Of a stretch of 64,000 nt of DNA, positions 23,315 to 29,056 are shown in pieces (position 1 is the first letter of the stretch; every line of letters begins with the position of its first letter). Source of the stretch: Polaromonas sp. AET17H-212 (GTDB lineage: Bacteria > Pseudomonadota > Gammaproteobacteria > Burkholderiales > Burkholderiaceae_C); assembly GCF_002379085.1 (NCBI RefSeq), contig NZ_NBZW01000015.1:1-64000 (forward strand). Direction: 5' to 3'. The position numbers were made by a program, and so were the translations under genes. The notes under the pieces were generated by a model. That model searched no databases and was not told the origin of the DNA. It was given only the letters and a program-made list of their open reading frames with translations.

Positions 23315-25717
<2,403 letters not shown>

Positions 25718-25746: not shown

Positions 25747-26235
25747 TTACGCGGCGACCTTGTCTTGTTGCAGTACCCGGGCGGCGTGCAGCACCGCCTT
25801 GACGATGTTCTGGTAACCGGTGCAACGGCACAGGTTGCCCGACATGCCGACACGCACTTCCTCTTCGGTCGGGTCCGGGTTATCCTGTAGGAAGCGGTAG
25901 GCGCGCATCAGCATGCCCGGCGTGCAGAAGCCGCATTGCAGGCCATGCTCCTTGTAGAAGCCTTCCTGCACCGCATGCAGCACACCGGCATTGGCCAGCC
26001 CCTCCACGGTCTTGACCTCGCTGCCGTCGCACTGCACGGCCAGATGCGTGCAGCTCTTGACGGACTGCCCGTCGATGTCCACCGTGCAGGCGCCGCAGTG
26101 GCTGGTTTCGCAGCCAATGTGGGCGCCGGTCAGGCTCATCTTCTCGCGCAGGAAGTGCACGAGCAACGTGCGCGGTTCGACCGCCTCTTCCACCTTGCGG
26201 CCATTGAGGGTCATGGAAACAATTTTCTTGATCAT
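25747..26235 (-). CDS. coxS: Aerobic CO dehydrogenase small (iron-sulfur) subunit
   Basis: A 162-residue subunit carrying two [2Fe-2S] clusters. The plant-ferredoxin-like N-terminus has CETSHCGAC and a following cysteine (SCTH); the C-terminal helical domain has CGFC and CRCTG. It carries electrons from the molybdenum site in CoxL to FAD in CoxM. The start [12 protein letters not shown] at 26235 has AGGAGA upstream. It lies between coxM (43-base gap) and coxL (29-base gap). Confidence 0.95.
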
Positions 26236-26278
26236 CGCCTGGGTCTCCTGTTGATCTGCTTGTTCTTCTTCTGCGGGT

Positions 26279-27142
26279 TCAGCGGCAGCGCGCGGCAGCG
26301 GCAAGAATGGCGCGTTTCGCCATTTCACCGGCCATCGCCGTCTTGTACTCAACATCGCCGCGCAAGTCCTCCGCCGGGTCGCACACGGCGCGCACCGCCT
26401 GCACCACCGCGGCCAGCGAGGCGTCATTGACAGGCTGGCCGATCAGCGCCTTCTCGGCATCGCGGGCACGCAGCGCCGTCGGCGCCACATTGGTCAGGCC
26501 TATGCTGGCCTGCGTCACCACACCGCCGGCCATGCGCATCACCACGGCGGCACCGGCCGTGGCCCAGTCACCGGTTTTGCGTTTGAGCTTCTGGTAGGCA
26601 TAACCGGTACCCGACGCGAAAGGCGTCACCAGGATGGCGGTCAGGATTTCGTTCTCGGCCAAGGCCGTCATGTAGGTGCCGTGGAAAAAATCCACGGCCA
26701 GCACCTGGCGCTCGCCCGCCGGACCCTGCAATACAAAGCTTGCATCAAGCGCCATCGCAATCGCGGGGTGGTCGTTGCCCGGGTCGCCGTGGGCGATGTC
26801 GCCGCCTATGGTGCCGCGGTTGCGCACCTGCGGGTCGGCAATCAGGCGGGCCGCCTCGGCCAGCAGCGGCAGACGCTCCTGCAGCAACGGAGAGGCAATC
26901 AGCTCGCTTTCGGTCGTCATCGCGCCAATGCGGATCTTGCCGCCCTCCTCGCGGATCCCGCGCAGCTCGGGAATCCGGTTGATGTCGATCAGCACGCCCG
27001 GCTGGGCAAAACGCAGCTTCATCATGGGCAGCAGGCTGTGTCCGCCGGCGAGCAGCTTGGCATCGTCGCCCAGCTCGGTCAGCAGGGAAAGCGCCTCGCC
27101 AATGGAGCGGGGCGCGTGGTACGCAAATGAGGGTGGAATCAC
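26279..27142 (-). CDS. coxM: Aerobic CO dehydrogenase medium (FAD) subunit
   Basis: A 287-residue FAD-binding subunit of the molybdenum hydroxylase family. Seen: the FAD motifs [11 protein letters not shown] and [17 protein letters not shown]. It passes electrons from the iron-sulfur clusters toward the respiratory chain. The start is GTG at 27142 with AAGGAG upstream. It is the first gene of the cox transcript; its 153-base upstream region holds three direct repeats proposed to bind RcoM and a short hairpin. Confidence 0.95.
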
Positions 27143-27190
27143 GTTGTCTCCTTATGCGGCCCGGGGGCCTTTAGAAGCGCGACTCTAGCG

Positions 27191-27207
27191 CCAGCCGATT
27201 CGGCTGG
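27191..27207. promoter_or_regulatory. Perfect palindrome upstream of coxM
   Basis: CCAGCCGA and TCGGCTGG flank a single T, so the coxM leader RNA could form an eight-base-pair hairpin about 50 bases before the start codon. Role unknown. Confidence 0.4.
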
Positions 27208-27239
27208 GGAAGCTAAGCAATCAACCGTCGCTCACACCG

Positions 27240-27285
27240 CACGAACGGCAGCATGATTGCACGAATGAAAATCCTCCTGCATGAA
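27240..27285 (-). promoter_or_regulatory. Triple direct repeat, probable RcoM binding site for the cox operon
   Basis: On the coxM-coding strand TTCATG (27280-27285), TTCGTG (27260-27265) and TTCGTG (27240-27245) are spaced at exactly 20 bp, two helical turns. LytTR proteins bind direct repeats at about 20-21 bp spacing. A weak -35-like TTGATT (27218-27223) lies just downstream, so an activator could contact RNA polymerase. The RcoM assignment is inference. Confidence 0.65.
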
Positions 27286-27295
27286 AATCTGCGGA

Positions 27296-28093
27296 TCAGA
27301 TTTTGGCCGGTATGGCGTCCGTCAGCCCCAGTTGCTCCAGCAGGCGCGGCGCGCTTGCACGCGACACCGGAATCTCGACCGGGGGGGATCCCATCATGCG
27401 CAGCGTCATGCGGCCGTCGCCGCGCACGATTTCGTCAACATGGGACAGATTGACGATGTAGCTGCGGTGCACGCGCAGGAACAGCTGCGGATCGAGCCGG
27501 GTCTCGAGGTCGCCAATATTGAGGTTGCAGAACTGGTTGCCGTGACCGGTATGCACCCAAGTGTAGTGCCCCTCGGAACGGATGAAGGAGACACTGGGCA
27601 CATCCACCAGCAGCACCCGGTTCTGCTTGATGGTTGGAATCTTGCGCAGCTGCCTCTTTTCGCCGCCTTCACGCGCGCCGCGTGTGGCTCCGCCTTCGAC
27701 TTCCTGGCTGACCACTTCGGTGATATCGTAAAAAACCAGGGTGTAGCCCGTCGTGGCGCCCTGGGCATCGCCGATCTTGGACACCTTGATCAGCAGCATC
27801 CGGTCCGGGATATTGATCATCATGGCCATGGGCGGCGCGTTGTTCACCGGGCACTCGGCCTGCCCCAGCAGAAACTTCACCTTGGCCCTGGCCGCTTCGG
27901 GATGAAAGGAGGTCACGAGTTTGCCAAACGGCATTTTGTCGGCCACAGGCAGGCTGCGCCGTGCGTAGTCATTCATGCCCATCACCCGCAGCTCAAGGTC
28001 AAGGTGAACCACGCCGACGTCAAAACGCTCCAGCAGATAAAGCCACGAGCTTGACGGCCCGGGCGACGGGGAACCAGCGGGACAGGTTTTCAT
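27296..28093 (-). CDS. rcoM: RcoM-like CO-sensing transcription regulator (PAS-LytTR)
   Basis: A 265-residue one-component regulator with an N-terminal PAS domain (about 15-130) and a C-terminal LytTR DNA-binding domain (about 155-260). From memory of Burkholderia xenovorans RcoM, the heme ligands His74, Cys94 and Met104 align here with His64 (SFHPEAAR), Cys81 (ECPV) and Met91 or Met92 (MAMMINIPDRM). RcoM binds CO at heme and activates cox genes. It lies 153 bases upstream of coxM on the same strand. The start at 28093 gives a length near the known proteins (about 267); starts at 28171 or between are possible. Confidence 0.88.
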   Translation of the reverse strand: MKTCPAGSPSPGPSSSWLYLLERFDVGVVHLDLELRVMGMNDYARRSLPVADKMPFGKLVTSFHPEAARAKVKFLLGQAECPVNNAPPMAMMINIPDRMLLIKVSKIGDAQGATTGYTLVFYDITEVVSQEVEGGATRGAREGGEKRQLRKIPTIKQNRVLLVDVPSVSFIRSEGHYTWVHTGHGNQFCNLNIGDLETRLDPQLFLRVHRSYIVNLSHVDEIVRGDGRMTLRMMGSPPVEIPVSRASAPRLLEQLGLTDAIPAKI

Positions 28094-28372
28094 CAAAGTA
28101 CCATGTTGTAGGCAGGCCAAAACCATTGCGAACCACCCGCCGGAATCGCTTTCGTGCCGCCAGGTGGGCACTCATGCATCCCAGGCGCGCTTCGTTAACA
28201 CGCTGGGCCTCCAAGCCGGGCAACGGCTAGAGTTTTGACTCATGAAGAAGCAAATGCGCCCCTTTTTTGAACCTCGGCCACGGGATGTTGATGCGGCCGC
28301 GGCCGTGTCGCTACGGGGTTTACCCGAGTGCGCAAGCCATGCGCCGCCCCCTCTGAAGACAGGGCAGATGCA

Positions 28373-29056
28373 ATGACAAGTCCCGTGAACCCCCACCCTC
28401 ACTGGCTGGCGCGCGGTATGGGTTCGGCCACCCTCACCCCGGCCGTTCTGGTGCTGCTCGCCGGGCTGACACTCTGGTCGCTGGGCCAGTCCGGCGCGGC
28501 CGGCAACAAAGACCTTCCCACCATCGTGGTTCTGACACTGGCGGCCGTGGCTGCGGGCTGCGCTGCCCTGGCTTGGGTGCGTCCGCAACGCGTCGGGCTG
28601 TCGCCGCCCCAGGTGATGCTGTCGCTCGGCTTCGGCGGCATGTTGCTGGGCTTGCTGTACGACGTCAGCCAGACCGGCCCGGCCCGGCTGGACAGCCTGT
28701 GCGCCCAGGCCACCGCTCTTGGCTTCGTGGACAGCCTCCGGCTGCACCTTGAATTTTTGCCCGGCATGCACGCGGGCATGCTGGCCGGGGGGCTGCTCGC
28801 CATCCCCGGCCTGAGGCTGCTCCGGCCCCATTGCGGCCGCTACCTGTGTTCACTGTTTGCGCAGAACCTGCTGTGTTCCGGCTGGATGCTGGTCGGCATG
28901 ACGGCGGGCGCACTGTGGTTTTCACGCTGGCCGCTGTTGGCCGGAAACAGCACCCTGCCCGGCATGCTGGGTGGCATGTTTGTCGGCATGACCTGGGGCA
29001 TGGTGATCAGTGTGGCGCTGTACCGGGGTTTCTTCACCCTGCGCAACCGGGTTTGA
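28373..29056 (+). CDS. Predicted inner-membrane protein, about six transmembrane segments
   Basis: A 227-residue protein that I do not recognise. Hydrophobic segments lie near residues 17-37, 48-69, 79-99, 125-147, 157-182 and 195-222, with glycine- and methionine-rich helices (LPGMHAGMLAGG, MLGGMFVGMTWGM) and a conserved-looking histidine in the fourth. It diverges from rcoM across about 280 bases, so a link to CO metabolism is possible, but nothing in the sequence proves it. An upstream in-frame start at 28328 exists; 28373 is preferred as a normal short N-terminus. Confidence 0.7.
   Translation: MTSPVNPHPHWLARGMGSATLTPAVLVLLAGLTLWSLGQSGAAGNKDLPTIVVLTLAAVAAGCAALAWVRPQRVGLSPPQVMLSLGFGGMLLGLLYDVSQTGPARLDSLCAQATALGFVDSLRLHLEFLPGMHAGMLAGGLLAIPGLRLLRPHCGRYLCSLFAQNLLCSGWMLVGMTAGALWFSRWPLLAGNSTLPGMLGGMFVGMTWGMVISVALYRGFFTLRNRV

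Follow-up and report, generated by a model that had tools for sequence, protein, structure and literature searches.

What purpose do three TTCRTG direct repeats serve between a gene for a PAS-LytTR regulator, rcoM, and the CO dehydrogenase gene coxM, and how do they stand in relation to the promoter of the cox genes? The repeats very probably serve the adjacent RcoM as docking sites, and on the sequence comparisons set out below we consider it highly probable that they form an RcoM operator at the coxMSL promoter, through which CO-bound RcoM would activate coxMSL. This reading follows from the match to the published RcoM-1 operator, taken together with rcoM upstream, coxMSL downstream and the conservation of the repeats P1 and P2. 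In the window, by which we mean the whole stretch of 64,000 nucleotides that was analysed, the repeat array lies in the 153 bases that separate the stop of rcoM (27296) from the GTG of coxM (27142), with the following features:

27296..28093, minus strand: rcoM, PAS-LytTR regulator (LytTR, PF04397, 2e-20), directly upstream of coxM and in the same direction
27278..27285, minus strand: P0, distal repeat TTCATGCA, apparently a lineage-specific extra copy
27258..27265, minus strand: P1, predicted RcoM site TTCGTGCA, with conserved columns in 40 rows aligned at the 20-bp step
27238..27245, minus strand: P2, predicted RcoM site TTCGTGCG, with a conserved TGCC directly before it
27218..27224, minus strand: P3, TTGATTG, whose TTGATT was the -35-like element of the earlier, sequence-only reading; exact in 36/41 rows
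27182..27187, minus strand: predicted -10 hexamer TAGAGT; TAnnnT at the same place in 41/41 rows and TAnAnT in 40/41
27148..27153, minus strand: AAGGAG, ribosome-binding site of coxM, read from the sequence, 5 bases before the GTG
26279..27142, minus strand: coxM, FAD subunit of CO dehydrogenase, GTG start (PF00941 and PF03450)
25747-26244, minus strand: coxS (Fer2/Fer2_2), downstream of coxM and in the same direction
23315-25717, minus strand: coxL, large subunit of aerobic CO dehydrogenase (TIGR02416, 1541 bits against a cut-off of 991)

The surroundings of the array are those of a CO oxidation locus, with genes for a CoxG-like protein, an AAA ATPase, a CoxE-like VWA protein and a MobA-like NTP-transferase past coxMSL. 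The C-terminal LytTR domain of RcoM scores 73.2 bits against PF04397 (cut-off 22.6) and its N-terminal PAS_10 match 20.8 bits, just under the cut-off of 22.1; no MHYT domain was found in RcoM by Pfam, which returned only LytTR and the sub-threshold PAS. Residues H64, C81 and M91, which we take to correspond to His74, Cys94 and Met104 and whose role in heme binding is putative, are kept in 55/56, 55/56 and 56/56 aligned rows respectively, the window being counted twice. A PDB sequence search gave one weak LytTR-domain match, 3d6w, and nothing in Rfam matched within 26900-28500. The window's genome yielded one RcoM, and across larger sets RcoM turned up in 12 of 87 genomes in the genus, 29 of 349 in the family and 5 of 399 in the order, each count including the window's genome. 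Five RcoM homologues at other loci (L080, L085, L089, L090 and L093) have one stop within the match (TAG, TGA, TGA, TGA and TAA), which may be the gene end or the sign of a broken gene. Divergent from rcoM, a 242-aa open reading frame (28328-29056) is without a Pfam match and by eye resembles a membrane protein.

Read on the minus strand, the three repeats begin at 27285 (TTCATGCA), 27265 (TTCGTGCA) and 27245 (TTCGTGCG), in steps of exactly 20 and 20 bp; their 6-mers are, in that order, TTCATG, TTCGTG and TTCGTG. The direct repeats that the sequence-only reading had reported upstream of coxM at 20-bp spacing are thus present, and its statement that they face the same side of the helix holds roughly. 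The spacers between the 8-mers are 12 and 12, with 13 from P2 to TTGATT; the 17 bases once given between the end of the repeats and the -35-like element are in fact 15 (TTGATT starts at 27224), or 13 when counted from the 8-mer. Compared with the published TTCNNGCA, both TTCATGCA and TTCGTGCA are full matches and TTCGTGCG agrees at 7/8.

With 40 occurrences of TTCRTG on one strand of the 64 kb window and 39 on the other, ~3e-5 triples at exactly 20 bp would be expected on both strands together; one was seen. When the 153-base intergenic region was shuffled by mononucleotide 5000 times and put to a looser test (TTnnnG at any equal period of 18-23), 14 of the shuffles contained a triple. A search of the window's genome, 4.6 Mb in size, for the doublet TTCGTGC...TTCRTGC stepped at 19-21 bp gave a single match; the shorter TTCGTG...TTCRTG at 19-21 bp gave two (the present locus and contig C3), and a reversed control gave one. 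Across the family the TTCGTGC-TTCRTGC doublet at 19-21 bp steps is not specific, with matches in 219 of 349 genomes. Many of the matches listed are at 21 bp, a multiple of three, so that they may be coding sequence; 14 of those listed are at exactly 20 bp, and 5 of these lie beside rcoM, in four genomes (G400, G407, G433 and G723).

For the comparison with relatives, 52 loci came from a genome-contig search and more from further genomes; L052 and L101 were unusable on the coxM side owing to contig ends. The near set, defined by tandem rcoM-coxM and an RcoM at least 70% identical, comprises 61 records, which include the window twice (L001 and L107) and several that seem to be repeated across collections; clustering at 90% left 41 non-redundant rows, the window among them. 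The closest named relatives are Polaromonas. A free chain scan before coxM gave chance chains at some loci (e.g. L010, L045 and L038) and was replaced by an anchored alignment with shuffled controls. The P1-P2 step is 20 bp in 40 of the 41 rows and 21 in the remaining one, and both sites read TTCRTG in 36/41; these column counts are partly circular, since anchoring was by similarity to TTCGTGCA and TTGATTG, although the -10 at 31 bp played no part in it. Scored against the consensus, P1+P2 reach 12 or more out of 16 in all 41 real rows, a level attained by 10 of 820 shuffled controls anchored in the same way.

Several other traits of these alignments were seen. The TGCC directly upstream of P2 (27247-27250), which does not precede P1, is kept at 0.90 (T), 1.00 (G), 0.97 (C) and 0.93 (C) in the 40 aligned rows and is possibly an extra contact or a bend point. 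Loci L045, L050, L051 and L053 share a stretch, ATTGTGCAAACGCACATAT, directly upstream of P1 that looks like another factor's palindrome. The rcoM-coxM gap measures 730 bases in L050 and 554 in L053, against ~130-200 in most near loci; in both, the operator stays beside coxM and the regulator gene is separated from it by something.

The position of the promoter had to be reassigned. The sequence-only reading took TTGATT (27224) as a -35-like element, and we rejected this assignment: TAnnnT stands exactly 31 bp downstream of TTGATT in all 41 rows and in 5 of 620 shuffled controls, whereas at spacers of 16, 17 and 18 it occurs in 0, 0 and 1 of the 41. The hexamer at 31 bp agrees with TATAAT at four or more positions in 41/41. 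Column information is 0.09-0.57 at the would-be -10, 17 bp below TTGATT, and 2.3-2.5 at the T, A, A and T of TAnAgT. The -35 belonging to TAGAGT is poor, with a mean TTGACA match of 2.4/6 at the best spacer (18) and at least 4 matches in 7 of the 41 rows, and a sigma-70 consensus scan of 27000-28500 did not find a promoter. With the upstream edge of P3 37 bp above the -10 and the end of TTGATT 31 bp above TAnnnT, the sites therefore end above the predicted -35 region. The -35 region of the coxM promoter is covered by a perfect inverted repeat, CCAGCCG-AAT-CGGCTGG (27191-27207), which close relatives keep only loosely and which is perhaps due to chance or the site of a second factor.

If TTGATT is not a -35 element, P3 is probably either a third RcoM site or a fixed contact for an activator or RNA polymerase. 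In its letters P3 departs from TTCNNGCA: it shares T1 and T2 with TTCNNGCA, plus T5 with TTCGTGCA, and TTGATTGC and TTCGTGCA have only three letters in common. Its position was compared in 26 more distant tandem loci, 8 with an RcoM 55-61% identical and 18 others, after L084 (an RcoM fragment, 61%) and L079 (a near-duplicate of L078) had been dropped from the -10 count. All 8 kept loci of the 55-61% group have TTCGTGC as the third repeat of their best-scoring array; since the search returns a best array in every case, the array itself is no test. TAnnnT follows this third TTCGTGC at 31-32 bp in 6 of the 8, with none listed at other spacers of 8-37. Because TTCGTGC holds the same distance from TAnnnT as TTGATT does, the two appear to be positional homologues, and TTGATT is more probably the third RcoM site than another fixed contact. 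No constant distance between third site and TAnnnT was seen among the other 18 tandem loci, whose RcoM is 34-54% identical.

The distal repeat P0 has a different distribution. It matches well (10.5 of 11), but only 6 of the 61 near records have a TTCRTG in phase above P1, namely the window twice and four Polaromonas records (L006/L095 and L007/L096) that appear to be two close relatives present in both collections. The expectation that the repeats would be kept in relatives with the same rcoM-coxM arrangement accordingly held for P1 and P2 and failed for P0. The P0-P1 step is 21 bp in the Polaromonas relatives against 20 in the window, and P0 was not found in the next close relative, L008/L097 (RcoM 93%). 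At a score of at least 8, in-phase P0 copies occur in 3 of the 41 rows (the window; L095, at 21 bp; and L060, with a weak TCCGTGCA); these 3 rows over four in-phase offsets compare with 6 row-hits over the other 19, so that beyond the window's own lineage the 41-row test shows no clear preference for in-phase offsets. Estimated by hand from base composition, a chance in-phase TTCRTGCA is unlikely (~7e-5 for the four offsets). Because TTCRTG in phase is confined to the window and the Polaromonas records, is missing from L008/L097 and shows no clear enrichment elsewhere, we interpret P0 (27285) as a lineage-specific extra site. It may add cooperativity, or it could be neutral.

Several other explanations have to be set against an RcoM operator. 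That the repeats are a product of chance is scarcely credible: doublets on their own are not uncommon among genomes of the family, but the exact triple would be expected far less than once in the window and P1 and P2 stand out from their shuffled controls. The same abundance of doublets, in 219 of 349 genomes when RcoM is found in 29 of 349, also weighs against the RcoM operator, as do the departure of P3 from TTCNNGCA, the varying distance between third site and TAnnnT in the 18 loci of 34-54% identity, and L084, a fragmentary RcoM in the 61% band with no strong array before its coxM. A CoxC-like repressor operator, as in Afipia carboxidovorans, would also account for repeated LytTR sites, since according to passages of PMC11347149 CoxC too acts at a cox promoter through three direct repeats, set 18-21 bp from one to the next. 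The same passages give CoxC a membrane MHYT sensor and an operator overlapping the -35, features that contrast with the Pfam result for RcoM and with sites ending upstream of the predicted -35 region; together with the conserved putative H/C/M heme residues, this makes a repressor very improbable.

Only marginally better placed is the original proposal of a P0-P1-P2 operator upstream of a promoter that uses TTGATT as its -35, which we regard as very unlikely. The strength of P0 and its phasing with P1 and P2 speak for it, but P0 as TTCRTG is absent beyond the closest relatives and has a 21-bp step there, TAnnnT at spacers of 14-20 from TTGATT was met twice in 287 tests (7 x 41) against 41/41 at 31, and the sigma-70 scan was empty. 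A much more substantial alternative, possible though not our preference, concerns P3 only and stays within the RcoM-operator reading: TTGATT would be a contact for RNA polymerase or a second factor, locked to the -10, with RcoM using P1 and P2 alone (plus P0 in Polaromonas). Such a contact would explain why the distance to the -10 is 31 bp in every row but that to P2 varies (20 bp in 9 rows and 21 in 32), as well as the departure of the TTGATT letters from TTCNNGCA. Nevertheless, the phase of TTGATT agrees with that of P1 and P2, TTCGTGC stands at the equal distance (31-32) from TAnnnT in 6/8 loci with an RcoM of 55-61%, and TTGATT-N31-TANAGT occurs once in the window's genome, at the present locus, which argues against a general promoter class there.

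Under the RcoM-operator reading, CO would bind the heme of RcoM, whose LytTR domains would then occupy direct repeats that lie in phase, spaced by roughly two turns of the helix, and help RNA polymerase to initiate where the -10 is TAGAGT and the -35 is poor. P1 (27265), P2 (27245) and most likely P3 (TTGATTG, 27224) would make up the conserved core, and we infer a coxM transcription start at about 27175. The earlier interpretation is partly supported as a whole. The architecture of a LytTR-regulator operator stands, with rcoM adjoining and several sites upstream of the coxM promoter; three sites rather than two are not special here, three being the published RcoM arrangement. The type of switch was already known, and the locus adds a further example with a corrected predicted anatomy (a P1-P2-P3 core, the extra P0 and a -10 at 27187-27182). 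Among the matches listed by a literature search of open-licence papers, in which most subscription ones were missed, no title concerns RcoM operators in Polaromonas or other Comamonadaceae. A CO-sensing switch characterised, within the passages at hand, in one Paraburkholderia strain would thereby extend to a broad tandem group around Comamonadaceae, with a precise predicted operator-promoter geometry (sites, -10 and distances) and a corrected promoter assignment.

The number of sites, three or in Polaromonas four, touches on the way in which a LytTR regulator that is a dimer makes use of three operator sites. Passages of PMC9670170 describe RcoM as homodimeric, with a LytTR domain, a heme-binding PAS domain and a heme ligated by His and Met; according to passages of PMC11160397, CO binding activates its DNA binding and CO dehydrogenase expression. 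It is conceivable, and we offer this tentatively as something we would not yet bet on, that a Comamonadaceae clade rebuilt the promoter-proximal RcoM site as a near-invariant TTGATT 31 bp above the -10, making RcoM a fixed-geometry activator that replaces the -35, and that the added fourth Polaromonas site fits two full RcoM dimers. If so, the rebuilt and the fourth site would both bear on the use of such an operator by a dimer.

The abstract of Kerby and Roberts (2012) reportedly describes two regions of ~60 bp with three repeats 21 bp apart. Passages of PMC11347149 present RcoM-1 of Paraburkholderia xenovorans LB400 as an activator whose target, upstream of the -35, is three copies of TTCNNGCA separated by 12-13 bp spacers. 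The present locus resembles that operator, as far as those passages describe it, in its TTCNNGCA-type direct repeats, its 12-13 bp spacers and its place beside rcoM and aerobic CO dehydrogenase genes, and differs in the 20-bp P1-P2 step, the TTGATT at the third core position and the extra upstream copy. The window has rcoM and coxM in tandem, whereas the two are divergent at the more distant loci compared here (Burkholderiales genomes and a Paraburkholderia plasmid); on the Paraburkholderia aromaticivorans plasmid an OmpW gene lies between the two. Nine divergent intergenic regions, aligned without L003, L056, L057, L085 and L094 (distant, or of odd length), contain TTCRCGCA-type repeats, in several at 21 bp steps, such as the array TTCGCGCA-TTCACGCA-TTCGTGAA of L090. 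These repeats are consistent with the published operator.

CoxC of Afipia carboxidovorans OM5 acts at PcoxB as a repressor, on a triplet of TTNNNGCN at 18-21 bp steps that overlaps the -35, and senses through an N-terminal transmembrane MHYT domain, while generic LytTR operators canonically consist of two 9-bp repeats (both from passages of PMC11347149). The window shares with the CoxC operator several LytTR direct repeats at similar steps that would control cox genes, unlike which its RcoM is without MHYT and its sites, judged by the predicted -10 31 bp below TTGATT, are without overlap of the -35. With generic LytTR operators it has in common direct repeats about two turns apart and a LytTR-type DNA-binding domain; unlike the generic pair, it combines two strong conserved sites with a diverged third element and an apparently lineage-specific fourth.
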